Of a stretch of 64,000 nt of DNA, positions 17,500-34,818 are shown piece after piece. Made by a program: the position numbers and the translations under genes. Below the pieces are notes generated by a model, which was given only the letters and a program-made list of their open reading frames with translations, was not told where the DNA came from and did no database searches. Positions within the stretch are counted from its first letter, which is position 1. Each line of letters opens with the position of its first letter. This DNA comes from Nocardioides okcheonensis. GTDB lineage: Bacteria > Actinomycetota > Actinomycetes > Propionibacteriales > Nocardioidaceae. The stretch covers positions 4,340,001-4,404,000 of the forward strand of contig NZ_CP087710.1 of assembly GCF_020991065.1 (NCBI RefSeq), given 5' to 3'.

Positions 17500-20474
17500 C
17501 CTCCAGCGGCGCGTTCGTGCGCAAGGGCTTCGCGGACGGTGCCGCCGCGGCCGCGGGCATCGCGGCGCTGGGCTCCGCCGGCCGCCCGCTCACCGACGTG
17601 CTGGCCGCCACGGCCGACCCCGACGCCGCGCTCGCCGAGCTGCTGCGCCTCGTCGAGGCGCTGGACGACCGGGCCGAGGGTGCCGGGCGGTCGATGCTGG
17701 CCGAGGTCGCCGACGACGAGGGCACCGCGATGCGGCTGTGCTGCGTGCTGGGCGCGAGCGCCGCGCTGGCCCAGCACCTCGTGCGGCACCCCGACCACTG
17801 GCGCGAGCTCACCGACCCGACCCTCGGCAGCACCCGCCCGGCGGCCTACGCGGTGCGCGCGGCGATGCTCGCCGCGGTCGGCGCCGACACCACTGCGGCC
17901 GAGCCGGTCGCCACGCTCCCGGACGCCGAGGCCGTCGACGCGCTGCGGGTGGAGTACCGCCGGATCCTGCTGCGCCTCGCCGCGCGCGACCTGGCCCACC
18001 ACGTCGGCGTCGACGACGCGGCGGCCGAGCTGTCCGACCTCGCCGGCGCGACGCTCGAGGCGGCGCTCGCGGTGGCCCGCGCGCGGGTCGGGGAGCAGGC
18101 CCACGCCGCGCGGCTCGCGGTGATCGCGATGGGCAAGTGCGGCGGCCACGAGCTCAACTACGTCTCCGACGTCGACGTCGTCTTCGTCCACGAGCCCGCC
18201 GACGACGCCGACGACGGGACGGCGCTCCGGGTCGCGACCCAGCTCGCCTCCCACCTGATGCGGATCTGCTCCGACCACACCCGCGAGGGCGCCATCTGGC
18301 CGGTCGACGCCAACCTGCGTCCCGAGGGGAGCCAGGGGCCGCTGGTCCGCACGCTGGCCAGCCACCGCGGCTACTACGAGAAGTGGGCCAAGACCTGGGA
18401 GTTCCAGGCGCTGCTCAAGGCGCGCCCGGTCGCCGGGGACCTCGCCCTCGGGCAGGCCTACGTCGAGATGATCGAGCCGATGGTGTGGACCGCGGCCGAG
18501 CGCGACGGCTTCGTGGCCGACGTGCAGGCGATGCGGCGCCGCGTCGTCGAGCACATCCCCGCGCACGAGGCGGAGCGCCAGATCAAGCTCGGGTCGGGCG
18601 GGCTGCGCGACGTCGAGTTTGCCGTCCAGCTGCTCCAGCTCGTGCACGGGCGCGCCGACCCGACGCTGCGCGACGGGGCGACGCTGAGCGCCCTCGCCCG
18701 GCTGACCCGCGGCGGCTACGTCGGCCGCGAGGACGGCGAGAAGCTGCACGACGCGTACGCGTTCCTGCGCACCCTCGAGCACCGGGTGCAGCTGCACCAG
18801 CTGCGCCGCACCCACGTGCTGCCCGACGACGAGGCGTCGCTGCGCCGGCTCGGTCGCTCGCTCGGGCTGTACTCCGAGCCGGTCACCCAGCTCGACAAGC
18901 AGTGGCGCCACCACCGCCGCGAGGTGCGGCGGCTGCACGAGAAGCTGTTCTACCGCCCGCTGCTCGGCGCCGTCGCCCGCCTGGCCGGCTCCGAGGCGCG
19001 GCTCTCGCTCGAGGCGGCCGAGGCCCGGCTCGCCGCGCTCGGCTACGCCGACCCGAAGGCGGCGCTGCGCCACCTCGAGGCGCTGACGAGCGGGGTCTCG
19101 CGCACCTCCGACATCCAGCGCACCCTGCTGCCGGTCCTGCTGGAGTGGTTCGCCGACGCCCCCGACCCGGACGCCGGGCTCTTCGGCTTCCGCCGGATCA
19201 GCGAGAGCCTGGGGCGCTCGCCGTGGTACCTCACGATGCTGCGCGACGAGGGCGAGGTCGCCCAGCGGCTCGCCCACGTCCTCGGCACCTCGCGCTACGC
19301 CACCGACCTGCTCGAGCGCGAGCCGCAGGGCGTGAAGATGCTGGGGGAGTCGCTCGTGCCGCTCAGCGCCGAGGCGGCGCTCGCGGAGATGCAGGCGCTG
19401 GTCGAGCGGGCCGACTCGGCCGAGGCGGCGGTCGGCGCGGTGCGCGCCGTGCGCCGGCGCGAGCTGCTGCGGATCGCCACCGGCGAGCTGGTCGCCGGCA
19501 CCGACGTGGCGCTCGTCGGGCAGGGGCTGAGCCGGCTCACCGACGCGACCCTTCAGGCGACCCTCGACATCGCGGCCGAGGCGGTCCGTCGCCAGCGCGG
19601 CCTGGATGCCGCGCCGAGCGCGATCGCGGTCGTCGCGATGGGCCGCTACGGCGGCTTCGAGCTGTCCTACGGCAGCGACGCCGACGTGATGTTCGTCCAC
19701 GACCCGGTCGACGGGGTCGAGCCCCAGGTCGCGTCGTCCTACGCCACGGCCGTCGTCGCCGAGCTGCGCCGGCTGCTGTCGCTGCCCGCCAGCGACCCGC
19801 CGCTCGAGGTCGACCCCGATCTGCGGCCCGAGGGCAAGAACGGGCCGATGGTGCGGACCGTGGAGTCCTACGCCGCCTACTACGCCAAGTGGTCGCACGT
19901 GTGGGAGTTCCAGGCCCTGCTGCGCGCCGACGCGGTGGTCGGCGACGAGGCGCTGCGGCAGCGCTTCACCGAGCTCGTCGACCCGCTGCGGTTCCCCGCG
20001 GGCGGCATCAGCGAGGCCGACGTCGTCGAGGTGCGCCGGATCAAGGCCCGGGTCGACGACGAGCGGCTGCCGCGCGGCGCCGACCGGCACACCCACCTCA
20101 AGCTGGGCCGCGGCGGACTGGCCGACGTCGAGTGGACCGTGCAGCTGCTGCAGATGCGGCACGCCGGCGCGGTCGAGGCGCTGCGCACGCCCCAGACGTT
20201 GCCGGCGCTCGAGGCGGCCGCCGCGGCGGGGCTGGTCGGGGAGGACGACGCGGCGACGCTCGCCGAGGCGTGGCGGCTGGTCAGCCGGGTGCGCAACGCC
20301 GTCACGCTCGTCCGGGGGCGACCGGCCGACCAGCTGCCGCGCGACGCCCGGGAGCGCGCCGCGGTCGCGCGGGTGCTCGGCTACCCCCAGGGCGCGTCCG
20401 ACCAGATGGTCAACGACTACCTGCGCACCACCCGCCGGGCCCACGCGGTGGTCGAACGCGTGTTCTGGGAGTGA
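17496..20474 (+). CDS. glnE: Glutamine-synthetase adenylyltransferase/deadenylase
   Basis: A 992-aa bifunctional enzyme (the mycobacterial one has 994) that adds and removes AMP on glutamine synthetase in answer to nitrogen status. It contains two nucleotidyltransferase domains with the paired motif: GKCGGHELNYVSDVDVVFVH (N-terminal) and MGRYGGFELSYGSDADVMFV (C-terminal). Each is followed by an RPEG motif (LRPEGSQGPL, LRPEGKNGPM), by KWSHVWEFQALL-type helices and by LGRGGLADVEWTVQLLQ. The GTG start at 17496 overlaps the amidotransferase stop. Last gene of the cluster. Confidence 0.96.
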   Translation: MTSSGAFVRKGFADGAAAAAGIAALGSAGRPLTDVLAATADPDAALAELLRLVEALDDRAEGAGRSMLAEVADDEGTAMRLCCVLGASAALAQHLVRHPDHWRELTDPTLGSTRPAAYAVRAAMLAAVGADTTAAEPVATLPDAEAVDALRVEYRRILLRLAARDLAHHVGVDDAAAELSDLAGATLEAALAVARARVGEQAHAARLAVIAMGKCGGHELNYVSDVDVVFVHEPADDADDGTALRVATQLASHLMRICSDHTREGAIWPVDANLRPEGSQGPLVRTLASHRGYYEKWAKTWEFQALLKARPVAGDLALGQAYVEMIEPMVWTAAERDGFVADVQAMRRRVVEHIPAHEAERQIKLGSGGLRDVEFAVQLLQLVHGRADPTLRDGATLSALARLTRGGYVGREDGEKLHDAYAFLRTLEHRVQLHQLRRTHVLPDDEASLRRLGRSLGLYSEPVTQLDKQWRHHRREVRRLHEKLFYRPLLGAVARLAGSEARLSLEAAEARLAALGYADPKAALRHLEALTSGVSRTSDIQRTLLPVLLEWFADAPDPDAGLFGFRRISESLGRSPWYLTMLRDEGEVAQRLAHVLGTSRYATDLLEREPQGVKMLGESLVPLSAEAALAEMQALVERADSAEAAVGAVRAVRRRELLRIATGELVAGTDVALVGQGLSRLTDATLQATLDIAAEAVRRQRGLDAAPSAIAVVAMGRYGGFELSYGSDADVMFVHDPVDGVEPQVASSYATAVVAELRRLLSLPASDPPLEVDPDLRPEGKNGPMVRTVESYAAYYAKWSHVWEFQALLRADAVVGDEALRQRFTELVDPLRFPAGGISEADVVEVRRIKARVDDERLPRGADRHTHLKLGRGGLADVEWTVQLLQMRHAGAVEALRTPQTLPALEAAAAAGLVGEDDAATLAEAWRLVSRVRNAVTLVRGRPADQLPRDARERAAVARVLGYPQGASDQMVNDYLRTTRRAHAVVERVFWE

Positions 20475-21181: not shown

Positions 21182-21910
21182 ATGAGCTGGCTCGGGATCC
21201 TGCTGATCGGCTTCGCGGTGACCGACCTGACCCACTCGGTGCGCCGCACGCGGCTCCTGCCGGGGTGCGTCGGCGGGCTGGTGGCGCTCGGTGTCGGCCT
21301 GCTCGCCGGCCTGACGTCCGGCCGCGACGTGGCCGCGCTGCTGCTGGTCGCGGCGGTCGTGGTGCTGTGGGACCTGACCGTCACCTGGGGCTTCGGCCAC
21401 CCGGGACCGGCATGGCTCCCGCTGACCCTGTTCGTGCTGGCTGTCGGCGGCGCCGTGGCCTGCTCCGGCCTCGCCCCCGAGGCCGCCGGGCCGCTCGGAC
21501 GCTGGCTCGACGACGTCACCGTGCCCGCCCTCGCCGGCGTCTCGCCCGACCGCTTCCTGCTGGTGCTCGGCGGCTTCGGCGTCCAGCTCTCCACCGGCAA
21601 CGTCCTGGTCCGGCTGGTGCTGAAGACCACCGGCACGATCAACCCCCGCGCGGACGGCGCCATGCCGCCCACCCAGCTCAAGGGCGGCCGGCTGCTCGGC
21701 CCGCTCGAGCGGGTCTTCATCCTCGCGCTGGCGCTGGGCGGGCAGGTCACCGCGGCGTCAATCGTGGTCGCGGCGAAGGGCCTGCTCCGCTTCCCCGAGC
21801 TGTCGTCGCGCCACGAGCAGCAGACCGTCCACGAGATGACGGAGTACTTCCTGCTCGGGTCGTTCGTCTCCTGGCTGGTCGCGCTGGGGTCATACGTGCT
21901 GCTGGCCTGA
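21182..21910 (+). CDS. Membrane protein paired with SatD
   Basis: A 242-aa protein with about six spans (LGILLIGFAVTDL, GGLVALGVGLLAGLTS, VAALLLVAAVVVLWDLTV, LTLFVLAVGGAVACS, VFILALALGGQVTAASIV, YFLLGSFVSWLVALGSYVLL). It includes a polar loop with GRLLGPLERV followed by KGLLRFPELSSR. Similar to the DUF3307-type proteins that accompany SatD in other bacteria (recognition moderate). It begins with ATG 21182 after GGAAGGAGG. The charged RFPEL/HEMTEYFLLG segment is typical of the family. Last core gene before the GC drop. Confidence 0.75.
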   Translation: MSWLGILLIGFAVTDLTHSVRRTRLLPGCVGGLVALGVGLLAGLTSGRDVAALLLVAAVVVLWDLTVTWGFGHPGPAWLPLTLFVLAVGGAVACSGLAPEAAGPLGRWLDDVTVPALAGVSPDRFLLVLGGFGVQLSTGNVLVRLVLKTTGTINPRADGAMPPTQLKGGRLLGPLERVFILALALGGQVTAASIVVAAKGLLRFPELSSRHEQQTVHEMTEYFLLGSFVSWLVALGSYVLLA

Positions 21911-22064
21911 GCGGACGCTGCACCTCGCCCACTATGACGCGGGTTCTCCGGCCGTAGCGGTCTCCGGTCGCGGGGGTCAGCGAGGCCCAACGTGAATACC
22001 GACTTTGCTGCGCGTTCAACGTCCGGGAGCATGGGCACCCTGACCACCATCTGGAGAACGCCCG

Positions 22065-23123
22065 ATGAGCACTACCCGCCTGACCCTCACCGCTGGCGAA
22101 GAGCTGCGGCTCACCCAGGTCATGGGCGACATCCAAGAGGCCGCGGCCGCCTACTACGCCGAGACCGCCTCACGTAGCGACCTCGGACGCCCCGTCCGCA
22201 ACTGGCTCAGTAGCGTTCAAACGCTTAACGACCTCCTCGCCAACGAACTCGGTGACAAGACGACCTACACGTCGCTCTTCGGGACCAGCCCGACGCCTGG
22301 CGCGGCACTCATCAACGCCGTCAAGTACGCCCGCAACGCCGACCAGCACGTCATGCAGATCGTCGCGCCTCCCAAAGCAAACAGCCTCGTCGGCGGACTC
22401 CACGGCCTCCGGGTCTACGCGCTCTGGGAACCTATCCCGCGGGCCGTGCACGACAAGCTCCACGGCCGGACACAGAAGCTCCAGCCCGCGTACGTAGCGA
22501 ACCTCGAAGGTCAAGAAGTCACCGGCACCATGCTTGCGGTCCTGCGGTTTTTCGCTGACCTCGCGCCCCAGATCGTTCACCGTGACCAGCGCGGAGAGTG
22601 GACCGGGTTCCCGTTGAAGCCCCAGCCCGCAGTACTTGCCAACATCCACCCTGACGAGCCGGTCGACGACGTTGAGGCAGCAAACCTGTGGCTCAACAAC
22701 CGCCTCCCGAACGGCGACGCACGCGTCGTCTGCGGCCAGGTCACGAAGGATGGCGCCATCTACCTCGTCGGGTTCACTTTCGCCGACCAGCTCGCGTTCT
22801 CCCCGTTCATCGAGACGACCGACCAGGTCGAGCGCGACATCGCCGCAGGGTTCCCCTACCTGGTGGGTGACCTCGCGGCCAATGTCACGCAGGTCAAAGA
22901 CAAGTTCCCCGGCGCAGAAGGGGTCCTGCACAGCGCCAACGACGTAGCCACCTGGGCTACGCCAGTGACTCAGACCCGGTATGACAAGGACTGGCTCTCA
23001 GTCAACGACCTCGACTGGTGGGGCCACTCGGTCAACATCGAGCACCCCGGCGTCGTCCCGGACTCCATCGCCTACGAACAGCGGCGCGCTTTCCGACTCA
23101 ACGCCCATGCGCCGGCACGCTGA
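22065..23123 (+). CDS. Hypothetical island protein with a HEPN-like R-N-x3-H motif
   Basis: A 352-aa soluble protein, family not recognised. The N-terminal third is helical (residues 10-100), and YARNADQHVMQI at 88-99 contains R90-N-x-x-x-H95, the spacing and Asn typical of HEPN RNase domains. The rest looks alpha/beta (LHGLRVYALWEPIPRAVHDK, GAIYLVGFTFADQLAFSPFI). Start ATG 22065 follows TGGAGAA. The codon use (more A/T at third positions) differs from the core genes upstream, which marks the left side of an accessory island. Assigning it as a HEPN ribonuclease is inference from a short motif. Confidence 0.7.
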   Translation: MSTTRLTLTAGEELRLTQVMGDIQEAAAAYYAETASRSDLGRPVRNWLSSVQTLNDLLANELGDKTTYTSLFGTSPTPGAALINAVKYARNADQHVMQIVAPPKANSLVGGLHGLRVYALWEPIPRAVHDKLHGRTQKLQPAYVANLEGQEVTGTMLAVLRFFADLAPQIVHRDQRGEWTGFPLKPQPAVLANIHPDEPVDDVEAANLWLNNRLPNGDARVVCGQVTKDGAIYLVGFTFADQLAFSPFIETTDQVERDIAAGFPYLVGDLAANVTQVKDKFPGAEGVLHSANDVATWATPVTQTRYDKDWLSVNDLDWWGHSVNIEHPGVVPDSIAYEQRRAFRLNAHAPAR

Positions 23124-23129
23124 CGAGCC

Positions 23130-23284
23130 GTCACCGACGCCCTCGGCCTCGGCGTCCCGATACGAACGCTCAGTTCCTCGCTAGACACTCCGCCCCACGA
23201 ACCACCGAGCACTACGACCGTTCCCGCGGAAACCTCGACCGCCACGGCGTCCACTCTCTCACCGCCTACTTCGCTGGGGTCTAG
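23130..23284 (+). pseudogene. Tyrosine recombinase (phage integrase) C-terminal remnant
   Basis: The reading frame ending at the TAG 23282-23284 encodes HSAPRTTEHYDRSRGNLDRH followed by GVHSLTAYFAGV. This is the classic end of actinophage or island integrases, including the nucleophilic Tyr in TTEHYDRSR. Just upstream another frame encodes TDALGLGVPIR, which fits the segment that normally precedes it, so there is also a single-base frameshift near 23165. No catalytic Arg box or N-terminal part remains. It is a relic of the element that brought in the island. Confidence 0.75.
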
Positions 23285-23427
23285 GCGAGAGGGAGCGGCA
23301 GCTGTGCCGCGAAGGCGCATGCAAAACGCCCAGAACGGGCGTGTCCTGAGCTCGCCACTAGGCGGCATATCGATTTCGTGAATCTTGGCTGTACGTGACT
23401 GCCCCACCGCAGATCCGAACTTCTTCT

Positions 23428-26400
23428 TTACGCGAGACGACTGTCGGAGTCCCGATCGTCCGCCGACAGATCAACCTCCTCGAGTATGGCCAGCACCCGG
23501 CGTACTAGGTCTGGCGCATCGTCAACGGCGCCGCCTTCGGCCAGTAGAGCAGCAGCGCTGGGGAGGCCGCCCGCGGGATCAGGCACACCGAGCTCGGTAG
23601 CGACTTGCCGGGCACGGCGGAGAGAGTCGGCGCGTTCCTCATCGGTCGGCTCGCCACCGAAGGCCACGAGCGCCAGAATCGCCAGTAGTGATGCAGCGGC
23701 TTCGGGCTCGCGGTTGGACGCAGCACCGTACATGGCTGCGGATTGCCAGCCCATGAGCGTCTCTTCAGCCTGTTCTCGCGCGCCCGCGTAGATCGCCATG
23801 AGGAGAGTGAGCGCATTGTCGGTCCAGATCCAGAAGGACCCACGTGACAGCGCAACGGCGGCAGAGGACATTGGGTTCCACGATTCGTCGGCGGCGAGCG
23901 TGTAAACCGTTTCAGCGGGGAGCGGAAGATCGACTATGTGGTCGGCGGCCAGTTCCCTGAGCCAATCGAGACCAGTCTTGACGGCTTGGTCGATTGCGTC
24001 GTGGTCGTGACCGGCTGCCCGAAGGGCAGTGTCTCGCAGGGCGTCGAGGAGCGCCGGGGTACCGAACGCAATCACTCCTACTGCTCGGGCGGCACGTCGG
24101 AGTCCAAGGTCGTCACTCCACAGGGTCAGGCCTTCGTCCTCGGCCAGCTGAATGGGGTCGATCCACACCGAGTGCATGTCGTCGTCATGGAGGTCGGCGT
24201 AGACGGTGGGCTTGCCCGGCGAGCGAACACTGAGGCGGTCGATGTACTCGCTCACGGCCTCCGACCGCCGGAGGAGACGCATGAACTCGTCGTCGGTCAG
24301 TTCTGTGATGACGACCCGGCCACGCGTCTCGTCCCAGTGCATGCTGCCTGGGCTGCCAGCCATCCCACGGACGTCATCACGAAAGCGGTGAAGGTCCAGC
24401 ATGGTTGCTGGTGCTGAGCGTATAGCGAGGAATCGACCGGTAATCGTGTCCGGCCTGCTCAGCGCTGCCAGCGTGATGATAGTTGCCGAGTCAACAATGA
24501 CGGACTTGTTCAGCGCGCTAGCGGCCGCGTCGACCTCAAGTTGATGCTCGTCGTCGTGCTGACTGGCAGCCAATCTGGCTCCGAGGGCGCGTTGGGCTTC
24601 GAGAGTGGCTGTGCTGCGATTGACGACTCGTGCCAAGAGCCCCACAGGGACTCGACCCTGACGTACGAGCTCCGCGACCTCCTTCTTCACTTCGTCGGCT
24701 TCGGCCGCCTCTTTCAGCTGCACCATCATCCGGTCGAGAAGATCGGTCTCGTCCTCACCTTGAAGGATCCGAAGGCCCGTTGCGTCGCCATGACGGGCTA
24801 TCAGTTCCTGGATTAGTTCGAACGCTTGCTTGTGAAGCTCGCCGGGGACGGCGTCCTGTGCGGCGAGCCGTCTCTGCTTGAGGTCATCGTCTTCGTCGGG
24901 GTTACCGACGCCGTGGGTTCGAGTCACGATCGCGGTCACAAGGGCGGTTGATAGACGAGCATCGTCGATGAATCGCTGTGCTAGCGCGAAGGCCTCGAAC
25001 GCGGTGCGCTCATCCCAGACGCTTGCGTTGTTTGCGTTCGTCCAGAGGTAGGCATCTTGGCGGTTGCGTACAGGGGGGCTGTGCTTCCTGAGGCTGTCAG
25101 CGGCCCGAGCGATTCGCGCTTGATTCACCTGACAGGCGACCAGGTTCCAGACGAGCGTCGGACTCGGGTAGGCGTGGAGACCGATCGCCTGGTCAAAGTA
25201 GGACTCTGCGAGCGCCCAGTCCTCGCTCTGGCCGGCGCACTGGCCGAGGAACTCGAACATCTCCGCCCTGTCGACCTCCCGGATGTCGTTGACGGCGACA
25301 GCCACCTTGGCGACTTCCGAAGCCGCTAAGTAGTCATCTGCCCCGATCAGGGCTCGGGCTTGGTGCATCAGATAGTCAGGGGCCTTGGTCCGCTCGAACA
25401 GCGTCTTGGCTTGCTCGGCTGCTTCGCCGTAGCGCTTTGCCAGTCTCAGGTTCCCGAGCAGGTACTCCGCCGCGATCCTGTCGGACAGCGCGAGTTCTCG
25501 AAGCGCGGGGAGCGACGCATCGATGCCGTGACTCGGGATGGTGACGATCGCTTCGCACAGGCGGAGGAGCGATGCAGGTAGGACCCCTGACTCGACGTGG
25601 GGGCGAAGCCGTTCGATGACGTTGACGCCGTCGGCGCACAGTTCCAGACAGTGTTGCCCGATCTCGCTGAAGTCGCGCGCTGTCTCGGCGGTACTGAGAG
25701 CCGCCATGCGAAGGGCGGTTTCCTCGTCGCGCTCCAGGGCCAACGCGCCGCACCTGACCTTCGCCAACTGGTCGTCCGGTTCGTCTCCGAGAAGTTCGAG
25801 AGCTTGATGCAGTGCGTCGGAGTCGCCGAGCCGGTTGGCGGCGTAGGCTGCCAGACGTACGGACTTGGCGTCGATGTCGGCTGTGCCGCTGTCGCCAGCC
25901 GGTGGTGGCAACGCCACGCGCATGGCCGCCTTGTAGTCTCCCGCCATTTCAAGCGCACGGACGAGCCCCGCGCGGATGCTGTCGACTTTCCCTGCCCATC
26001 GGACTCGTTGGTCCAAGGCCTGTTCAAGCACGTTGACGCAGCGGCTCAGGTCCTTCGACGCGGCGCCGCCAAGGACCCAGCGACCTTGGAGACTGTCCGC
26101 TGTCATCACCATCGTTTCGCTCGACAGCGGATCCAACCTCAAGGCGGCCTCGCCATGGTGCACCGCGTCGTCGAATCGTTCTTCCATTCGCGCGTGTACG
26201 CACAACAGCCGCTGCGCAGGCGCGCTGCCTTCGACCTCAGGGCCGCCTTGGAGCAGAAGAGAGTCGACCGTCCAATGTCCTCGGTCGTTGGTGCCGGCGA
26301 CAACGGTGCGACCCACAGCGCGGAGTACCTGCTCACCAGGCATGTCCTCAGCTCGGCGAACGAGATCGTTCGCAGCGGCAGCGTCGTCGAAGTAGCGATG

Positions 26401-27189
26401 TGTCGCTGCAGCCACAAGCGAACGGACTCTGCTGTCTCCTCCGTTGGCGTCTGCTGACAACTCGAAAGCATCAGCCGCCAGCGACGTGAGACCGTGCTCG
26501 CTGCAGTACTGACCGACGATGCCCCACGCCCAGCCTGCGTTGTCTGTGATCCACCGGGGTTGGGCACTTAGGAGGGAGGTAGCCGTCCCTGCGGCGTTCT
26601 TGCGCCCCTCCGCCAGATGCATCGCCAGGAGAGCTGCGTCCGGGCGTTCCTTGGCCGGACGCTCACGGAGGCGCACCGCGACACCTGGCGGGATTCCCTG
26701 CAGGGAAAGTTCGAACACATCGAGAGCGCGGCGTTCGTGCCCAGCGGCTAGGTCGTCCCAGACTGATCCGGCCATGTCCACTGTCTGGTTCGCCGGTACT
26801 TCCACGCGGTACTTGGTCCGCGCTTTAGTGATCGTCGAGGCACTGATGCGCTGCCAGTACACCCGGTCCAACTCGGGGTGGTACATGGCGACGATGACAG
26901 GGAGCGCGTGGTTGAGCCAAAGGTTCCGTTCGCGTTCGCTGAACGAGAACCACCAACCCGCGGGCGTCTTGGACCGGAACCACGACTTCCCGCTCTTGAT
27001 CTGAACGGCGATTAGACGACCGGTTGTCTCCTCATGGGAATTGCGACCATTTCGCGAAACCCAATTGACTTTTTCGATCTGGGCATCGATGCCTTGGTCG
27101 CTTTCGTGCTGGCGGCGAACCTTCCACCCGAGTCTCAACGCGGCGCGCGTGAATTCCGCGACACCGAGTTCGCCCATCTGATCACTCAT
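23428..27189 (-). CDS. Large DUF4365-helical repeat-PIN-like protein
   Basis: A 1253-aa protein. Residues 1-150 match the DUF4365 nuclease-like (PD-(D/E)XK) domain: GELGVAEFTRAALRLGW, then D31 and D35 in SDQGIDAQIE and Q63-x-K65 in AVQIKSGKS, followed by WLNHALPVIVAMYHPELDRV. Residues about 180-880 are a long helical repeat region (TPR-like pairs). From about 910 a PIN-like core is seen: SVIVDSATIITLAAL, an acidic IQLAEDEGLTLWSDDLGLRR, then AVGVIAFGTPALLDAL. So one polypeptide seems to join a DNase-type domain, a sensor or scaffold and an RNase-type domain. It lies 88 bases downstream of the Ymh gene on the same strand, probably one operon. Function inferred as defence; no known system matches that I can name. 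Confidence 0.8.
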   Translation of the reverse strand: MSDQMGELGVAEFTRAALRLGWKVRRQHESDQGIDAQIEKVNWVSRNGRNSHEETTGRLIAVQIKSGKSWFRSKTPAGWWFSFSERERNLWLNHALPVIVAMYHPELDRVYWQRISASTITKARTKYRVEVPANQTVDMAGSVWDDLAAGHERRALDVFELSLQGIPPGVAVRLRERPAKERPDAALLAMHLAEGRKNAAGTATSLLSAQPRWITDNAGWAWGIVGQYCSEHGLTSLAADAFELSADANGGDSRVRSLVAAATHRYFDDAAAANDLVRRAEDMPGEQVLRAVGRTVVAGTNDRGHWTVDSLLLQGGPEVEGSAPAQRLLCVHARMEERFDDAVHHGEAALRLDPLSSETMVMTADSLQGRWVLGGAASKDLSRCVNVLEQALDQRVRWAGKVDSIRAGLVRALEMAGDYKAAMRVALPPPAGDSGTADIDAKSVRLAAYAANRLGDSDALHQALELLGDEPDDQLAKVRCGALALERDEETALRMAALSTAETARDFSEIGQHCLELCADGVNVIERLRPHVESGVLPASLLRLCEAIVTIPSHGIDASLPALRELALSDRIAAEYLLGNLRLAKRYGEAAEQAKTLFERTKAPDYLMHQARALIGADDYLAASEVAKVAVAVNDIREVDRAEMFEFLGQCAGQSEDWALAESYFDQAIGLHAYPSPTLVWNLVACQVNQARIARAADSLRKHSPPVRNRQDAYLWTNANNASVWDERTAFEAFALAQRFIDDARLSTALVTAIVTRTHGVGNPDEDDDLKQRRLAAQDAVPGELHKQAFELIQELIARHGDATGLRILQGEDETDLLDRMMVQLKEAAEADEVKKEVAELVRQGRVPVGLLARVVNRSTATLEAQRALGARLAASQHDDEHQLEVDAAASALNKSVIVDSATIITLAALSRPDTITGRFLAIRSAPATMLDLHRFRDDVRGMAGSPGSMHWDETRGRVVITELTDDEFMRLLRRSEAVSEYIDRLSVRSPGKPTVYADLHDDDMHSVWIDPIQLAEDEGLTLWSDDLGLRRAARAVGVIAFGTPALLDALRDTALRAAGHDHDAIDQAVKTGLDWLRELAADHIVDLPLPAETVYTLAADESWNPMSSAAVALSRGSFWIWTDNALTLLMAIYAGAREQAEETLMGWQSAAMYGAASNREPEAAASLLAILALVAFGGEPTDEERADSLRRARQVATELGVPDPAGGLPSAAALLAEGGAVDDAPDLVRRVLAILEEVDLSADDRDSDSRLA

Positions 27190-27277
27190 CGACCGTCACG
27201 CTTCCCGCTGTTCTGCGGCGATGGTGAAAGCGGTGCCGAAACGTGCGGCAAGGCGGACCATTCCGTGCCCGCGCCGC

Positions 27278-28102
27278 TCAGACTTCGTGCAGTTCGCATT
27301 CGGCTACCCAGCGCGCCAACAGACTCAAGACAGCCAGACGCTCCAACCCGTCCTGCTCCGAGATGGACCCGGTTCCGTGTGCCGCCGTATTGCGGATCGT
27401 CAGTTGGGAGCCTGGGGCGAACTGGCGAAGTCCGTCATTCATCGACGTCACGGTGCGGTCGGTCTGGACGCCTGGCCATCGTAGCCGTGGCTTGCCTGGT
27501 GATGGCTCTCTGTTGGAGAAGACCTCCTGCCACAACGCCGTTTCGGCGACATCGTTGCGCCGGGTGCGGACCTTCACCTGGCTGACGAGTGCTTCAGCTG
27601 CCGCGGCCACTGCTTCCCGGTAGTGGCCGTCTCGCCACAGCGGGCCTGCAGCACCCCAGATGAGGGGGTGCATCGACGTGACACCGATCGTGGGTGGCAA
27701 CTCAGCCTGGGCCTTCTCCGCCATGCCTTCCAGACGGCCGATGGCTTGATCGCAGGCGTCGAGGATGTTCGCGGGTTCCAGGAGGGGCTTGGGTTGCGTG
27801 ATGCTCAGCCATGCCGCGAAGGGGTCGATGCGTCCCAGGCCTTGCACTTGGATGTACATGCCGACGAGAGGTGCGACAGAGGCGATGCGCCCCGAAGCGA
27901 GTGCCACTTCGGAGCGGAGACGTTCGAGTTCGCCGGCGTCCACGCCGTCCTTCTGCATGATGGCGGGCGCGAGGCCGCCCGCCATCGCCATAGGCCCCGT
28001 GTTCTCGACGTGGAGAGCCAAGAACTCTTCAAGGGCTACCTTGAACGCTCTAACTGCGTCCGCCAGCTGGCGCAGATAGTCAGGGTTCCGCTCGGCATCC
28101 AT
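27278..28102 (-). CDS. TIGR02391 (Hypoth_Ymh) family protein
   Basis: A 274-aa protein from ATG 28102. The C-terminal 130 residues carry the Ymh signature: HPLIWGAAGPLWRDGHYREA (145-164), ALWQEVFSN, then R237-N-T-A-A-H242 and ERLAVLSLLARWV. The R-N-x3-H spacing is the HEPN-type motif. The N-terminal half is helical. Ymh-type proteins occur in mobile elements and near restriction genes. It is the first gene of a likely operon with the 1253-aa nuclease/PIN-like protein. Longer upstream starts (to 28318) exist but give a low-complexity extension, so I prefer 28102. Confidence 0.8.
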   Translation of the reverse strand: MDAERNPDYLRQLADAVRAFKVALEEFLALHVENTGPMAMAGGLAPAIMQKDGVDAGELERLRSEVALASGRIASVAPLVGMYIQVQGLGRIDPFAAWLSITQPKPLLEPANILDACDQAIGRLEGMAEKAQAELPPTIGVTSMHPLIWGAAGPLWRDGHYREAVAAAAEALVSQVKVRTRRNDVAETALWQEVFSNREPSPGKPRLRWPGVQTDRTVTSMNDGLRQFAPGSQLTIRNTAAHGTGSISEQDGLERLAVLSLLARWVAECELHEV

Positions 28103-28386
28103 GGCTCGAAGGGTCTCATGCGGGTCCGACAGCTGGGGGCAATCCGGCGTGGTCAGCGAGGTGTTCGCTCTCCGAGCGCTCCAAGAGCTTGAAACCTGCC
28201 AGCGTGCGGATGTGTCACTCGCCGGGGATGCGTCAGGAGGGGGAGACGGGACCGCCACAGCTGCGGTTGTTCCAAGGTCGCGCAGCTCAGGCGAGCGTCC
28301 CCGGTCCACAGCCGTCACTTCATCTACTCGACCATTTCACCGCGATTCTCAGTTGCCACGCGGTCCCTGCCAGGTGCATTGCCTAC
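28103..28386. other. Divergent intergenic region in the island
   Basis: 284 bases between the Ymh start and the broken nuclease-like gene. I found no gene, no clear -10 or -35 pair, and no repeat of note. Promoters for both directions must lie here or just inside the genes. Confidence 0.5.
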
Positions 28387-29227
28387 GTGGAAAGTAAGCG
28401 AGAGCGAGAGAACGCCGCGGCCAACGCCGTGGTGCAGCAGCTGACGGCTGTCACCGGCGCGGGCGTGCGCGGCTGCCTGCACGACGACAATTCCCGCGAT
28501 CGTATGCACGACTTCACCATCACGACTGAGGCAGACACGATCGCGCTCGAAGTCACCACCATCGCAGACGGGGCGTGTCGGGCGAGACCATCGCTGGAAC
28601 CGGGCGGCCGGCGACGATTGGGTCGACATCCCGGAGCTATCAAGCTGCTGGCTTGCCCATCACGCAGGCGTCATCGAGGCCGACGTTGCGATCGCCGCGC
28701 TGCGGACTCGCCTCCCCGCAATGGAGCATCTGGGAGTCGAGCAGATCTACACGCCCCATTGGCAGGAGCATGCGTTCGCGCCAGCCTCAGTTCGGCCACC
28801 CGAATGGGAGGCGGCACGCGCGCTCGCCTGCGCCGGGTTCTCGACCCTCAGTCGCGTAACCGACGCGAGCGCCGCCTTGCTTGAGGAACACGGTGGCCAG
28901 GTTTGGGTGGGCCGAGGGTTTGCGTTCAACCGACCGGTCGACCGAAACCTGCCCGCCGCCTTCGTCTCCGAGGAACTACATAAGGACCACCTCTCAGACG
29001 TGCACAAGCTTCTGGCTGCCGAAAACGTGACGTCGCGACACCTTTGGCTGTGGGTCGAGCTCACCGAGGGATTCGCCATGCTCCGTTCCTTCGAGACGGA
29101 GGGCCTGCCCGAGGTCGGCCTAGATATCGACGGCATCGACGGCGTCTGGCTCGGTCGCACCCCGCCGCCAGCTCGGTCGCCGGCTACGTATGGCCTCGAC
29201 AGCACGGCTGGACCAAGTTCTCGGTAA
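28387..29227 (+). pseudogene. Frameshifted nuclease-like hypothetical gene
   Basis: Frame 1 from GTG 28387 gives a helical start then DRMHDFTITTEADTIALEVT, with the D...E-V-T layout of PD-(D/E)XK-type folds. Near the GGGG at 28570-28573 the frame breaks. The +2 frame then continues naturally with DDWVDIPELSSCWLAHHAGV and on through LWLWVELTEGFAMLRSFETE to 29227. The total length is one base over a multiple of three, as expected for a single inserted base. It is either a true pseudogene or a sequencing error in a G run. Repaired product about 280 aa; family not named. Confidence 0.65.
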
Positions 29228-29746
29228 CACGAAACGGATCCGACCTCGGTGCCGGTTAGCCACGCAGACCGGTGGGACTGTCACAGCGTGACGGGCTTTG
29301 TAAGTGATTTCGCGCGGTCACGCTCACCGGGCAAGCGTCGCTATTCGGGGACCGTCGAAGTTGCGTCATCTCGCCGCCTGTCGGTGCCCTCGCTAACCGG
29401 CGTCGAGTTGCGTCAGCAGGCAGTCCGCCGCCGCCCGACGCACCCCGAGATTGACGAACCGTGGCGTCGCTCGTGCGAGGTTCCTCTGATGGCGCTGGTG
29501 CCTCGAATTGCCGGCTGAGAAGGAGCGTCTGCGCGACGCTCGCGAACCCCGCCATGCTCAGGATCTCCGCGCCGCGTTCAGCAAAGCGTTGCAGCACGTT
29601 CGCCGGTACCGGTCACGCCATCCGGACGATTCTGGGACTGAACTGCTGTCATTTGAGACACGGCCGGTGCGACGGTCAGTGTTCCGCCTGCGGATCATCG
29701 AACGGCCAAGTGCTGTCGCGGCTGCGTTCTAACGCAGGCGGCGTGG
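29228..29746. other. 519-base stretch without a supportable gene
   Basis: Short open frames exist on both strands (one on the minus strand with AERGAEILSMAGFASVAQTL is the most protein-like), but none has a start signal, a family match or continuity. The composition is mixed, as in decayed island DNA. Confidence 0.5.
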
Positions 29747-30670
29747 CTACGTCAGAGCGAGCGCTGCCGCTGTGGCAGCCGCGAGAGCGCGTTGACCGAG
29801 GTAGGCCTTGGCATCGTGAGGCCTCTTTCCGTTGTCGACAACGTAATCATGAACAACTCGACCCCCGGACGCCCCGCCGAAGATCCCTGCAAGGTCTGGT
29901 TCTCCGGCGACGAGGTCGTCGTGGTCCGCCAAATTGAGCCACGACAACGCTGAAAGAGGGAACGCCGGAGGCTGCTGCTCAAGGCGACGCGTGACTGGTC
30001 CGCGGAGGCCGAGCGGCGAGCCCATCGTCACGAAGTGCGGTGTTGCGACCGACGCGCGATGCAGAGCCTCATAAGAGACGACACTACCTAGGGAATGTCC
30101 GATGACTAGCCGGGTGTCGGCGGTCAGAATGCGATTCACACGATCTTGGATTGCCTCGCGCATGTCAGGTTTGGTCAGGTACAACGACGCTTGGCGTAAC
30201 TCTTGCCACACATAGCGCTCACCGAATGCCTGGCCGAGGTCGGCTAGCCATCCGATACGCGCGAGCGCCTCGACAGCGGGACGGATCGTCGCCCGGAAGC
30301 CTTGTGCGTCCACCTGCTCCGGAGCGGTGGCAGCCAAAGCAACGGATGCCCGCGCCTGATCGCGCGGACCTCCGACCTCGGTCGCACGCTCGAGCATGGC
30401 CCGGGCCAGGTCGAGCTCGACAGCCTGCACCTCGGGGTCAACCTCGGGCCGAGAACCGTCTCCCTGCGCGTCTGCGGCGAGGAACAGATCCCCATAGAAC
30501 GCCATCCTCGCCTCGATGCCACTGTCGTTATCCACGGTGATCTTGTCGGCAAGGTCTTCGTGACCGGCTTCGCGGACGCCACATGCGAGTGCCGGAATCC
30601 ATGCTGCTTGGAGCTCCTCCGCGCTGCGCTTCTGCTGCGCTATCCCGTGAACCATCACTACGGTGGCCAT
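29747..30670 (-). CDS. Alpha/beta hydrolase (lipase/esterase-like)
   Basis: A 307-aa protein with the alpha/beta hydrolase hallmarks: an oxyanion strand and turn at the start (VVMVHGIAQQ), nucleophile elbow GHSLGS with Ser193, a late Asp in NLADHDDLVAG and a candidate catalytic His in VVHDYVVDNG. No signal peptide, so cytosolic. It is divergent from the caspase-like/STAND gene with only 26 bases between the start codons. GAGAAT 5 bases before its ATG suggests a leaderless mRNA. Hydrolases of this type sit beside caspase-like and NTPase genes in conflict systems, so an effector that attacks lipids or a signalling ester is plausible (inference). Confidence 0.8.
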   Translation of the reverse strand: MATVVMVHGIAQQKRSAEELQAAWIPALACGVREAGHEDLADKITVDNDSGIEARMAFYGDLFLAADAQGDGSRPEVDPEVQAVELDLARAMLERATEVGGPRDQARASVALAATAPEQVDAQGFRATIRPAVEALARIGWLADLGQAFGERYVWQELRQASLYLTKPDMREAIQDRVNRILTADTRLVIGHSLGSVVSYEALHRASVATPHFVTMGSPLGLRGPVTRRLEQQPPAFPLSALSWLNLADHDDLVAGEPDLAGIFGGASGGRVVHDYVVDNGKRPHDAKAYLGQRALAAATAAALALT

Positions 30671-30696
30671 GGCGCATTCTCACACGGAGGTCGACA

Positions 30697-32595
30697 ATGT
30701 TGAACCGGTTCGCCCTCGTCATCGGAGCGCAATGTGAGGCGCTTCCGCCGCTGCCTTTCGTACCTGAGGTCGCTCAATCGGTCCACGAGACATTGACGGC
30801 GGGACAGGCCGCGGGGTGGCGATCCGTACGAGATATCGATGCGCCTCTCCTAGACGCGTCTAGCGCAGAGACCCGCCAGGCCATCACGGACGCGTTCCAA
30901 CGGGCCCACGACGACGAGGCCGCGCTGGCCCTTTGGTTCATCGGGCACGGTGTGGCGACTGGCGAAGATGACTACTACTTCATGGCAAAGGACAGTCCCG
31001 ACGAAACACCGCGCAGCAACAACGCAGTCCACCTTGTGCAGGTGTTACGCGAAGAACTCGAGGCGGCACCAAGGATCGACGGCCTGGTCGTGGTCGTGGA
31101 CACCTGCGACGGTGGCGAGGTTGCCCGCGGCTCTGCCAGGCGGTTGGTTGACAAGCTGTGGTCTGCGGGAGGCCGCTTGCAGTTCATCACGGCATCGGGT
31201 GACTCCCCTGCATACGGAGCCTGCCTGAGTCGAACGTTCACAACGATGGCTGCGCGGACGGTGTGGAACCCGGTCATCCCTCCCGAAGACTTAGTGTTCG
31301 CCGCTCGCAACAACTGCACCAAGCAGACACCGGGCTGGATGGGCTTCGACGCGCGCACAGGTCCCGTCGCCGACCCGGACCCGTCCCTATGGCTAAAGAA
31401 GAACGTGGCCTACCGCGTCGACTCCGTCAGCGGGACCTCGGGTGAGGCCTTGCTAGCGCTGTCTGCGCCGATTGCCGACGCGGTTGCCCACGGCAGGCAG
31501 TTCGTTCAGGAACAGGCTGATGCAGGTCTCATCTGGATCAAAGGCTCATACGGAAGCGGGAAGTCGGCACTGCTGTCTAGTTTGTACCGCGAGACCGTCT
31601 CCGGGCCGCACAGCGCCTTGGAAGTCCCGTCTGAACGGCCGTTCCTCGATGCATTCGTCGCCCTGTCTGGCCACGAGTCCATCGACTCGCTGCAGGACGA
31701 CATCGTCGAGCAGCTTCTCGCGCACGCACCCAGACCGCGTTCCGCCGAATCTGGGGCCGCAGCAGGGTTCTGGCGGGTGGGACTCGACGGAGTGGATTCG
31801 ATGAGCCCGGAGTTCCGGGTCGAACTCGAGCGGCTCATCTCGGACGCGGCCGCGAGCGACGCCGGCACGGCCGTACGGTTCGTGATCACGAGCAGCGATG
31901 ACATTCCTGACGCCCTAGGCGACGTACACGGGGCGACGCAGTTAGAGCTGACGGCATTGGGCCCGACCCCCGATAGCCCAGTAATGGAATTTAGGCGTAC
32001 CGAGGCAGGCCGTGGGGTACAGACCGCGCTTCTTGCATTCGCTGACTCCGACGACACTCGAGCGGAGCTGTTCGAACTTCTCCGCAGCTCGTTAAGCAGC
32101 TTCACTCTGGATCCTGGCAAGTCGGACCTTCAGTGGCTGGCATCGCAGGTCGCCACCGCGGCCGATCCTGCTCGACCCATGCCGCTCTCCCTCGGGCAGC
32201 GAGCCCTTCGCCGGCGGTCCATCCTAGTAAACCGTCGCGAGCTGCACGACGCGCTCTTCGAATTGCGGAAGCTCATCATTCGTTTGCCCACGGCGGGTGG
32301 AGGTGAAGCCGTCGGCCTCGTTCATCCAGCCTTGGCCGACCTACTCGGAACCGCCCTGGGCAGCCCGGTCGGACAAGAGATGCACGCTGCCGTAGCGGAC
32401 GAGCTGCTGGCGTTCCGCAAAGCGATCATCGAGGGCGAACCTCCGACCGGCGAGCAAGCACTCGACAGCTGGGACCAGTATGTCGGCTCGTTGAGCTATC
32501 ACTTGGTCCGTGCAGGTCGGTTCCAGGAGGCTCGCTCCATTTCGTGGCAAACGTACAACCGCACGGACGGACGCCGGCGTCGACCCATGGACTGA
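30697..32595 (+). CDS. Caspase-like protease fused to a STAND-type NTPase
   Basis: A 632-aa protein from ATG 30697 (CGGAGG 6 bases upstream). Residues 1-220 are a caspase-like (C14/CHAT clan) domain: His84 in LWFIGHGVATGEDDY and Cys137 in VVVVDTCDGGEVARG form the dyad. Residues 260-560 hold a P-loop NTPase: Walker A GSYGSGKS (283-290), Walker B VGLDGVD (361-367), and an RFVITSSDD strand as in STAND proteins. The C-terminus is helical and seems to be cut short by a 4-base duplication (GGAC twice, 32565-32572), after which the +2 frame continues with a natural helical sequence. No superstructure repeats or sensor domain are evident. Likely a regulated suicide or conflict protease (inference). 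Confidence 0.85.
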   Translation: MLNRFALVIGAQCEALPPLPFVPEVAQSVHETLTAGQAAGWRSVRDIDAPLLDASSAETRQAITDAFQRAHDDEAALALWFIGHGVATGEDDYYFMAKDSPDETPRSNNAVHLVQVLREELEAAPRIDGLVVVVDTCDGGEVARGSARRLVDKLWSAGGRLQFITASGDSPAYGACLSRTFTTMAARTVWNPVIPPEDLVFAARNNCTKQTPGWMGFDARTGPVADPDPSLWLKKNVAYRVDSVSGTSGEALLALSAPIADAVAHGRQFVQEQADAGLIWIKGSYGSGKSALLSSLYRETVSGPHSALEVPSERPFLDAFVALSGHESIDSLQDDIVEQLLAHAPRPRSAESGAAAGFWRVGLDGVDSMSPEFRVELERLISDAAASDAGTAVRFVITSSDDIPDALGDVHGATQLELTALGPTPDSPVMEFRRTEAGRGVQTALLAFADSDDTRAELFELLRSSLSSFTLDPGKSDLQWLASQVATAADPARPMPLSLGQRALRRRSILVNRRELHDALFELRKLIIRLPTAGGGEAVGLVHPALADLLGTALGSPVGQEMHAAVADELLAFRKAIIEGEPPTGEQALDSWDQYVGSLSYHLVRAGRFQEARSISWQTYNRTDGRRRRPMD

Positions 32596-33001
32596 GCGCG
32601 CCGACGAGCTCGTCCGCGCGGCCGTCGAGGCGTTGGGACATCTCGTGCATCGCGGCGTCTCAGGTGCGAAAGTCAGAGGACGCGAATGGAGCCGCTGTCG
32701 TCAGGTCGTCTCGTCGGCGCGCCAGCAATGCGCCGAGCCTTGCCGGACCTTCACGGTCAACCGGTTCACGTAAAATTGCTGCGTTCCTGAGGCTGCCCCA
32801 TTCCGCCGCCTTTCGCGTCGCTATCACGCACCTCCGCGTGCGCCGGACGCGATTGCCGCCATCTGTGAGGCGGTGACACCTCCCCGCGCACCGCACATGC
32901 TGGCTCAGGTCTGCTGGCTCTTCCGCCCGACATGTGGAGCTCTAAGCCGAACCGGAACTACACACGCCCACGCCTAAGCCTCGGGCGCTTACGCTGACCC
33001 C
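32596..33001. other. 406-base stretch: out-of-frame tail of the STAND gene, then nothing clear
   Basis: To about 32773 the +2 frame is open and encodes ERADELVRAAVEALGHLVHR, a plausible continuation of the caspase/STAND protein. From there to 33001 I see no gene. TACGCT at 32990-32995, 6 bases before the next GTG, is a likely -10 element. Confidence 0.5.
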
Positions 33002-33856
33002 GTGACTACCGCTCCCCCCGAGAGTTACAACGACGTCTTCAGCCATGACGGACCGGCGACCCTGGATCGCTACCTGTACCACTACACCAACCCATCGACG
33101 GCGGCCTTCATCCTTGAGTCGATGTCCATTCGTCTTGGCCCGCTTACGGCGACGAACGATCCGCGCGAGAACCGAGAGTGGTGGCCCTCAATGTCACTCG
33201 AGCACGGTGAGCCGGCGCTGGAGGAAAGCGAGTTCGTCGGTTTTACTCGTCAGGTCGATCAGGCGATGCGAGGGAGCGTGTATCTTGCGTGCTTCACCCA
33301 AGACCGCGCTGCAGAGGCAGAGTGGAACGGAGTGTGGAACTTCCATCGCGGTTGGGCACGCGCGCGAATGTGGCAGCAGTATGCGGGCGACCATGAGGGA
33401 GCCTGCCTGATCATCGACCGAGCAGCCTGGACAAGTGCGGTTGACCGGCTCGATCAGCCAACCGTTGACGGGGTCCGAGTGATGCAGGGTCGCGTCGAGT
33501 ATGAGGACCGTGCTCTGGGGTGGGAGAACCCAAACGGCCTTAACTATCTGGTGTCGGACTTGAGGCGCGATGGCGGGCGCGCGGTGGCGGGCCAGCGCAT
33601 TCGCGAGAATGCGGAGCAATTATTCTTTCGTAAGAACACGGATTGGATGTCCGAGCAGGAGTTTCGTTCATTGGCCATCGGTCTGGACGGGCCGGCCTAC
33701 ATTTCCCTTGCGGACTGCCTGGCCGCGATAGTCGTCGGCGAGAGGTCAGACGCCACACTCCAGTCCGCCGCAAGGAGTGTCCTGTCAGACCCAAGTCTTC
33801 TGGCGATCTGCCGGTGGCACCTCGGCGCACCGCAGGCTCTTCCCTGCCTGCCATGA
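33002..33856 (+). CDS. DUF2971 domain-containing protein
   Basis: A 284-aa protein that follows the DUF2971 pattern: YLYHYTNPSTAAFILESMSI, TATNDPRE, a YLACFTQDR strand, MWQQYAGDHEGACLIID, and FFRKNTDWMSEQEFRSLAIG. DUF2971 proteins are found scattered in accessory and defence regions; their biochemical role is unknown. GTG 33002 is preceded by TACGCT at 6 bases (leaderless). The gene stands alone on the plus strand. Codon use is island-like. Confidence 0.85.
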   Translation: MTTAPPESYNDVFSHDGPATLDRYLYHYTNPSTAAFILESMSIRLGPLTATNDPRENREWWPSMSLEHGEPALEESEFVGFTRQVDQAMRGSVYLACFTQDRAAEAEWNGVWNFHRGWARARMWQQYAGDHEGACLIIDRAAWTSAVDRLDQPTVDGVRVMQGRVEYEDRALGWENPNGLNYLVSDLRRDGGRAVAGQRIRENAEQLFFRKNTDWMSEQEFRSLAIGLDGPAYISLADCLAAIVVGERSDATLQSAARSVLSDPSLLAICRWHLGAPQALPCLP

Positions 33857-34288
33857 AGGGGTTCGCAAGCGCTGAGGCAGCGAACTACGCTGCTCAGCCC
33901 ACCCGCCCGATCTCAACGGGGTGGGTTCAAAGCTGATCGACCCAAAAGTGAGATCGCATGACCAACACCAAGTACAGCTGAGGTGGGGAACGAACGTCCG
34001 GATCTGCCTTCGGGTCAAGAGGCGTACGCCATCGGTGGGTCATTCCGCCGCGAGCCGGGGTGTCGGCAGCGCCTCCTACAGAACGGGTCTGATGAAGTTT
34101 GTGGTGATCGCGGCGGGCGAGTTGGTGGCCACAGGCCAATCGGGCGCCGCCATGCAATCACCATCGATCGGTGGCGCCACCTTGATCTGCGACCCGACCG
34201 CTCTCAGCCGAAACTCTTCAGGCCCACCGCACGTAAAGACGTCGGTGTTCGACCGGGATTGGGTGATTCATTGGTGTAGCTTCACCCG
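33857..34288. other. 432-base stretch without a supportable gene
   Basis: Open frames on both strands lack start signals and family features. TAGCTT at 34277-34282 is the likely -10 of the small membrane protein that follows. Confidence 0.5.
34277..34282 (+). promoter_or_regulatory. -10 element of the small membrane protein gene
   Basis: TAGCTT ends 6 bases before GTG 34289, the same layout as at many other genes of the window. Confidence 0.45.
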
Positions 34289-34603
34289 GTGCGGGACTTA
34301 CAGAAAGTCTGTGTGATCGTCAGCGGCGCCCTGCTGGCACTTGGCATTGGTCTCGGATTCTTCCGGGTTGTCTACGACATCCAAGGGGTCAAGTGCGGAA
34401 CGGCCTTCTTGAAGGAACCGCCATCGGCGTACCAGTTTGCCGATCGTCCAGCCGGTCCGTGGCCGTCGTGCCAGTCGCCGCTGTCAGATGCTCGGGTGCT
34501 CCCGATCGTCTTGATCGGTTTGGGCATGGCTGGCTCGGGGGCGGCCTTCGCCATCCGCCAGTCCCGTAGCAATGCCACGGGCGCTGCGAGCGCGTCGACG
34601 TAG
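34289..34603 (+). CDS. Small two-span membrane protein
   Basis: A 104-aa protein with two hydrophobic spans (VCVIVSGALLALGIGLGFF at about 7-25, and VLPIVLIGLGMAGSGAAFAI at about 70-89). A 45-residue extracytoplasmic loop holding two cysteines (VKCGTAFL and PSCQSP) separates them. Family not recognised. The GTG start is supported by TAGCTT 6 bases upstream. Right-most gene of the island. Confidence 0.6.
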   Translation: MRDLQKVCVIVSGALLALGIGLGFFRVVYDIQGVKCGTAFLKEPPSAYQFADRPAGPWPSCQSPLSDARVLPIVLIGLGMAGSGAAFAIRQSRSNATGAASAST

Positions 34604-34818
34604 TGCCGCCGCCAGAGGCTGACTTGGGCCACGGCTGCGTGGCTGGCTCGCCTCGCAAGCGGCCGCCGACCGGATTTTTCCGCAATGAGCAGCGCTCCTG
34701 CCGCGTCTATCCGCCGCTAAGGGGCTAGGCCGAAGGCACTGAGCAACGGTCTCTTCCACCGGCACCGTACGAACGGCATGTGCACGTAAACAGCGTCTCG
34801 CCTCACGCGACGGGTCGT

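Follow-up and report, generated by a model that had tools for sequence, protein, structure and literature searches.

The DNA analysed here, termed the window, is a 64,000-nucleotide stretch of the Nocardioides okcheonensis genome (contig NZ_CP087710.1, positions 4,340,001 to 4,404,000), and it harbours on its minus strand two neighbouring genes that a preliminary description had read as a candidate two-gene system. The larger gene, which is the main subject of this report, starts with ATG, occupies 23428-27189 and encodes a protein of 1253 residues with the order DUF4365, TPR, short conserved linker, PIN and C-terminal region. It lies 88 bp downstream of a gene on the same strand that encodes a 274-residue protein of the Ymh family (27278-28102), and both open reading frames (ORFs) were found where they had been placed. 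The three predicted nuclease assignments made for this pair (DUF4365, PIN and Ymh) are supported by family matches and conserved motifs.

The N-terminal end of the large protein forms a predicted DUF4365/DREN nuclease domain of the PD-(D/E)XK type, as first proposed (residues 7-138; 26776..27171, minus strand, as for all parts of this gene). It matches PF14280 with an E-value of 9.3e-27, and a profile of 22 aligned proteins, used against solved structures and for the Pfam TPR counts, matches 9jsb, the solved DREN-APAZ nuclease of SPARDA (E 2.7e-11). A scaffold of TPR type follows (residues ~165-790, limits inferred; 24820..26697). The earlier claim of about 700 residues of helical repeats stands as to a helical scaffold, and is refined to TPR-like by matches of TPR_19 (Pfam) in 13 of the 22 relatives at E up to 1 and of solved TPR proteins to the profile; in the large protein of the window itself this Pfam signal is weak (PF07719, E 0.56), and a PilW-type TPR match at residues 630-735 reaches 21.1 bits, far under its cut-off of 154. 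A short segment with a VRxGRxPxGLLA-like motif, recognized by its conservation in the alignment, precedes the PIN domain (residues ~829-895; 24505..24705). The PIN-like core described before is the predicted PIN ribonuclease domain at residues 898-1036 (24082..24498), where PF20698 (PIN-TPR-GreABC) matches with E 6.3e-15 and 56.1 bits against a Pfam cut-off of 27.8; the same family matches 22/22 members of the profile alignment at E up to 1. The C-terminal region (residues 1040-1253; 23431..24072) has no Pfam match, is conserved in the alignment and is helical by inspection only.

A protein search in which 7992 candidates were scored returned at least 66 proteins, the window's own included, and conservation was read from an alignment of 65 (P0001-P0065, own included), of which 62 are approximately full length and three (P0045, P0059 and P0062) clearly shorter. 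Because 66 proteins were returned and 65 aligned, most of them near full length, the predicted DUF4365-TPR-PIN architecture is that of a real family and not a chance fusion. Where the source gives a name, the hosts of these relatives are actinobacterial (Nocardia, Actinoplanes, Amycolatopsis, Arthrobacter and others). Genome contigs yielded no relatives in a scan with the single protein and 104 in an alignment-based scan, from which 80 loci were kept. The segment at 829-895 is possibly related to HTH_upst_double_PIN: PF24407 matched before the PIN domain in the relative P0066 and, below its cut-off, in L174, and it had no Pfam match in the window's large protein, where profile comparison gave 0.3%. 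P0066 itself combines DUF4365, HTH_upst_double_PIN and two PF20698 stretches, and could be a double-PIN cousin. In another set of relatives with DUF4365 and TPR (L015 and L019-L023), the match to the family hidden Markov model (HMM) stops before the PIN part, and Pfam found no PIN in the two that were scanned, L020 and L023. Searches of the literature found no paper devoted by title to a DUF4365-TPR-PIN protein itself, and the PF20698 identifier was named nowhere in what was searched.

Both predicted active sites are kept in this family. D35, Q63 and K65 of the DUF4365 domain are unchanged in 65/65 aligned proteins, as are R25, Q27, D31, G33 and E39. The acidic residues of the PIN domain vary somewhat more: position 900 is D in 59/65, E in 4/65, P in one and a gap in one; position 932 is D in 53/65, E in one, G in nine and a gap in two; position 1026 is D in 62/65 with three gaps; and position 1027 is D in 61/65, E in one and a gap in three. 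From our reading of the PIN fold, we take D900, D932 and D1026/D1027 to be the catalytic acids. In the alignment with DREN, D35, Q63 and K65 are matched to D41, Q60 and K62, so three of the four residues first proposed for the active site hold; the fourth, D31, was rejected as a catalytic residue, since it aligns with DREN E37 and not with D41, although it is invariant. According to the available part of PMC12205087, D41/Q60/K62 are catalytic in DREN, the nuclease is turned on by tetramerization, and DREN D31, R33 and E45 form part of one tetramer interface. R25, Q27 and E39 align with these last three, and their invariance at interface positions suggests that DUF4365 might be activated by oligomerization.

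The large protein thus shares with the DREN-APAZ protein of SPARDA a DUF4365/DREN domain that has the Asp-Gln-Lys catalytic set and in which three positions of one tetramer interface are occupied by invariant residues (PMC12205087, PMC10810196, as far as their available parts go). The two differ in scaffold, which is here TPR plus PIN. There is no APAZ-type region: the PADLOC models Aga_REase-PNTD1-PNTD2 match residues 3-133 only, over profile positions 9-126 of 423-429, and the solved DREN-APAZ chain was matched only over its own residues 10-115. No Argonaute family was found among eight island and flank proteins, to which the search was limited. Membership of SPARDA was rejected on these two absences. 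A description that comes close in kind is that of DefensePredictor DS-3 (PMC13092281, main text), a single protein that needs its PIN active site for phage defence and has no antitoxin; its PIN, by contrast, is split between the protein ends, and DUF4365 has 0 occurrences in that text. The large protein could also be restriction-like, recognizing and cleaving the DNA of an invader itself instead of causing cell death, as might be expected from the resemblance of DUF4365 to a PD-(D/E)XK restriction endonuclease (available part of PMC10810196) and from the HTH-like segment before PIN in two relatives. This seems improbable, given that the DUF4365 proteins tested in PMC10810196 and PMC12205087 (in part) are described as non-specific, collateral nucleases, that the eight neighbouring proteins scanned include no methylase family, and that no neighbour recurs.

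PF20698, the Pfam family of the PIN domain, takes its name from a published conflict system, TPR-GreAB-C-PIN (Kaur, Iyer, Burroughs and Aravind 2021, PMC8195603). In the account given there, the N-terminal effectors of the system vary and include a restriction endonuclease (REase), GreAB-C is constant and the genes are mostly standalone; it is proposed that the protein binds RNA polymerase and extrudes the transcript, which is then cut by the PIN domain. The initial statement that the architecture matched no named defence system was therefore incorrect. The main text of PMC8195603 names neither DUF4365 nor Ymh, and its REase is presumably DUF4365. With this system the large protein has in common a PF20698 PIN at its C-terminal side, TPR repeats before the PIN (weak in the protein itself and clearer in homologues), an exchangeable N-terminal effector, here the REase-type nuclease DUF4365, and a mostly standalone gene. 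It differs in that GreAB-C between TPR and PIN was not found in it or in the actinobacterial relatives tested, and in that the proposed polymerase-binding step has no visible counterpart in it.

GreAB-C, whose expected place is immediately ahead of the conserved segment at 829-895, was looked for by profile comparison with hhalign, the reference profile being built from 23 GreA sequences. For the actinobacterial family the comparison gave 0.3% in residues 770-905 and 0.1% in the C-terminal residues 1036-1250, and a GreAB-C domain hidden elsewhere was rejected in view of the failure of both the region before PIN and the C-terminal region to match. The whole actinobacterial profile gave 0.2% against GreA, at an unrelated place, and 0.1% against the corresponding proteobacterial segment. 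This segment, cut from between TPR and PIN in six proteobacterial relatives (L055, L056 and their metagenomic kin P0187-P0190), served as a positive control of moderate strength and gave 75.6% against GreA (E 2.4e-5); with whole proteobacterial proteins instead of the cut segment, the values were 17.2% and 25.8%. A plain GreA HMM search was too weak, responding only to L055 (E 0.0042) of the six expected, and the profile comparison was relied on. The actinobacterial and proteobacterial families align lengthwise with E 3.6e-44, with much of the GreA-like segment opposite gaps. As the PIN, the TPR and the effector logic are common to both but GreAB-C, one defining feature, fails, we call the window's large protein a predicted GreAB-C-less variant, not a member, of the TPR-GreAB-C-PIN system. 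What remains new, as judged from these comparisons, is this branch without GreAB-C. The large protein might still target the polymerase as proposed in PMC8195603, with the protein bound to RNA polymerase, the PIN cutting the extruded transcript and DUF4365 acting as a second line, and the homologous PIN, TPR and N-terminal DUF4365 of proteobacterial relatives that have the GreA-like segment would agree with this. It is nevertheless unlikely, because the segment that would bind the polymerase gave such low values in both candidate regions against the proteobacterial control, and because so much of it lies opposite gaps.

Six relatives (L173-L178) carry a different N-terminal stretch on the same core, to which they align over 999 columns (E 6.7e-84). 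Pfam detects no DUF4365 in them at E up to 1, and no effector family in its place; their match to GreA is 0.2% by profile comparison. An exchange of N-terminal effectors on one core is of the kind that Kaur et al. 2021 describe (PMC8195603, in the part available). A maximum-likelihood tree was built on the C-terminal 560 residues of 36 proteins that we selected from those in hand. Its 26 actinobacterial rows with DUF4365 cluster together (88/94, a branch without a star). The four GreAB-C rows have DUF4365 as well and group separately (100/100), and the remaining six rows need two N-terminal changes; several branches are long, which leaves the deep order unsure. N-terminal exchange exists in this family but, on this tree, looks old or rare.

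The island that holds both genes extends over 21904..34800, with its left edge set by lost synteny and its right edge by the content of guanine plus cytosine (GC) only. GC is 64.2% within 21.9-34.8 kb as against 74.4% and 73.6% outside, and nucleotide similarity to three genomes of the same genus ends at 21,858-21,907. The large gene has no match in the 19 genomes listed for the genus, and PF20698 occurs in 3/396 genomes of the phylum, the window's own included. Among 25 loci (24 relatives and the window), no neighbour family, as defined from our own gene calls of at least 90 residues, is found in more than two. Repeats at the island ends, sought separately in 21700-22200 and 33800-35200, gave none that was convincing. 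Carriage of the large gene by plasmids or phages was rejected, with no record covering 80% of the large protein: of 16 plasmid matches 15 are to DUF4365 only, both of the two phage matches are likewise limited to DUF4365, and one plasmid (H1) matches residues 681-1044. Viral contigs gave three DUF4365-only loci and one Ymh locus. That the large protein is degenerate, or a housekeeping protein outside any conflict, would be compatible with the fact that its roles are all read from sequence. Such a protein would hardly be expected to keep its DUF4365 catalytic residues in 65/65 proteins, to be so patchily distributed and to sit in a variable island, and the chance that it is one appears very small.

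The Ymh gene was the other half of the proposed pair. Its ATG start, which gives 274 residues, agrees with most of 17 aligned homologues; an upstream GTG would give 346. The HEPN domain lies at residues 144-266 (27305-27673, minus strand) and matches PF09509 with E 9.3e-21, and the motif pointed out initially, R237-N238-x3-H242, is invariant in the best 120 of 374 homologues. The family is described as a HEPN family with an Rx4-6H motif, whose members stand by themselves or in fusions and also share operons with restriction systems (PMC3710099, in the part available). The gene beside the large one encodes the family domain with an Rx4H motif. It differs from the fused forms in that Pfam found no pMORC, AbiJ-NTD1 or AbiTii fusion in it, and its ~140 N-terminal residues match no Pfam family. 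No recurring partner of Ymh was found in seven Ymh loci, the window's included.

Linkage between the two genes was followed in other genomes. An HMM built from the best 120 Ymh homologues was run on 85 loci, 18 of which carry a large-gene relative from actinobacteria, flanked by at most 10 kb and in some cases by much less, with L055 and L056 representing the GreAB-C form. Its matches were confined to the window's own genome, and it found Ymh in 0/6 of the further loci L173-L178. Since this HMM may miss distant Ymh proteins, PF09509 was also searched through whole genomes, 26 in number: besides that of the window, these were 17 with the DUF4365-TPR-PIN form, two with the GreAB-C form and six with the other N-terminal part. 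It is present in 5/26, own included, and hence in 4/25 of the others with a relative of the large gene. In three of these four (G775, G776 and G787) Ymh and PIN are on different contigs. In the fourth, G784, the PIN was missed by the search, which responded in 24/26 genomes and not in G784 or G781, so that contigs could not be compared; its 20-kb locus holds no Ymh. Ymh is therefore beside a relative of the large gene in 0/25 other genomes, as far as the loci reach; a link could be masked where contigs break. When Ymh is taken as the starting point, the large gene is absent from the fetched part of all five loci (L168-L172, with L170 and L171 nearly alike in their neighbours). Ymh relatives are present in 18 of the 394 genomes sampled for the class and the TPR-PIN core in at least five; the window's genome alone has both. 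The core was counted where the match reached the C-terminal part in a frame of more than 1000 residues, leaving out a 234-residue fragment in G591, and two candidates per genome were scored, so this count may be low.

A true two-gene system, in which the Ymh HEPN ribonuclease (RNase) and the large protein would act together, e.g. in the manner of a toxin with its regulator or in a complex of three nucleases, is suggested by the common strand, the 88-bp spacing and the same low GC of the two genes. A simple consensus scan of 26900-28500 also found no terminator-like or promoter-like site, which says little at high GC, and the closest homologues (P0002-P0009, metagenomic) are outside the linkage count, such that a young Ymh pairing may exist in that sub-branch. 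Set against this are the lack of Ymh in the 18 and six loci of large-gene relatives, the few genomes in which the two families meet and the separate contigs or Ymh-free locus seen there, and the five Ymh loci (two of them near-identical in neighbours) with no large gene. The two-gene system was rejected because the genes are not side by side in the readable locus of any other genome, and the likelihood that they form one seems low. Ymh appears to be a gene for an independent HEPN RNase in the same island, a neighbour and not a partner. Of what the preliminary description expected from the gene neighbourhood, co-occurrence of Ymh with homologues of the large gene was not found, and a variable locus, seen as lost synteny, was.

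Other genes of the island were characterized more briefly. In the plus-strand ORF at 30583-32595 (670 residues) the N-terminal part is caspase-like (NF047832, of the EACC1-associated type, E 1.3e-12, with 47.6 bits where the cut-off is 140), and an NTPase region resembling AAA/NACHT is likewise under its cut-off. The start of this ORF is overlapped on the opposite strand by an alpha/beta-hydrolase-like ORF of 307 residues (29747-30670, minus strand; PF06259, E 0.0049, sub-cut-off). Beside Ymh, at 28189-29227 (plus strand), two overlapping frames are maybe one broken gene; their pieces, searched separately, had no Pfam match with an E-value of 10 or less. The protein at 33002-33856 (plus strand) is a DUF2971 protein (PF11185) that also matches the PADLOC candidate PDC-S31 (E 1.8e-7), and the 352-residue ORF at the left end of the island (22065-23123, plus strand) has no match in Pfam, NCBIfam or PADLOC. 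By their sequence matches, the contents of the island (the caspase-like/NTPase protein and the DUF2971 protein) fit a defence island, with the caspase and NTPase matches under curated cut-offs. In L012 (7636-19398), from a metagenome-assembled genome of Euzebyaceae, the large gene stands between homologues of the window ORFs 14518-15864 and 16863-20474, which we take to be glnA and glnE. The site past these ORFs may be an insertion hotspot, because the island of the window lies just past the same two genes.

Taken as a whole, the large gene is best explained as encoding a standalone conflict protein, probably one of abortive infection, of a TPR-PIN branch that is related to TPR-GreAB-C-PIN and has no GreAB-C, a reading to which we assign a probability of roughly 0.55. 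The features of this reading that come from the sequences are the identity of the domains, the two predicted active sites, the undetected GreA-type domain, the different N-terminal module in six relatives, the variable island and the lack of a recurring neighbour. In the resting cell the large protein would be kept inactive, with its TPR superhelix serving as sensor and assembly surface. A ligand derived from infection would bind the TPR array, upon which the molecules would assemble and bring their DUF4365 domains together; these would then oligomerize and cut nucleic acids non-specifically, as DREN of SPARDA does, while the PIN domain would cut RNA. The cell would arrest or die before phage release. 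The phage trigger, the TPR as sensor, the oligomerization, the nucleic-acid targets and the fate of the cell are drawn by analogy from SPARDA and the published family model.

Several points weigh against this reading. A defence role in this genome is drawn from context and family only, and PADLOC has no model for the whole large protein. The remaining tetramer contacts of DREN (E13, N17, R20 and Q29; PMC12205087, in part) fall on E7, A11, T14 and K23, which are variable. Position 7 is R in 47/65 and E in 9/65 proteins, position 11 is N in 25/65 and A in 14/65, and position 14 is E in 33/65, with E, A and T respectively in the window's protein; a complete set of DREN contacts was rejected, and with it one likeness to SPARDA. 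Some of the PIN domains may be weakened, given the G or gap at position 932. Frequent swapping of N-terminal modules was likewise rejected, the 26 DUF4365 rows being together on the core tree.

More specifically, and only tentatively, the trigger in the actinobacterial lineage without GreAB-C could be the TPR superhelix and not RNA polymerase. Assembly would then oligomerize the DREN domain and free the PIN RNase, combining SPARDA-like collateral cutting with RNA cleavage and requiring no Argonaute, guide or partner. DREN, whose known mode of action is to assemble on filaments of Argonaute, sits here on a different scaffold, and its activation rule is therefore testable in a single-gene system. 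The published family model relies on a GreA-like domain that engages RNA polymerase. A lineage that keeps both predicted nuclease sites without GreAB-C suggests that the TPR-PIN core can do without this domain, and turns the sensing step of the family into a testable question.

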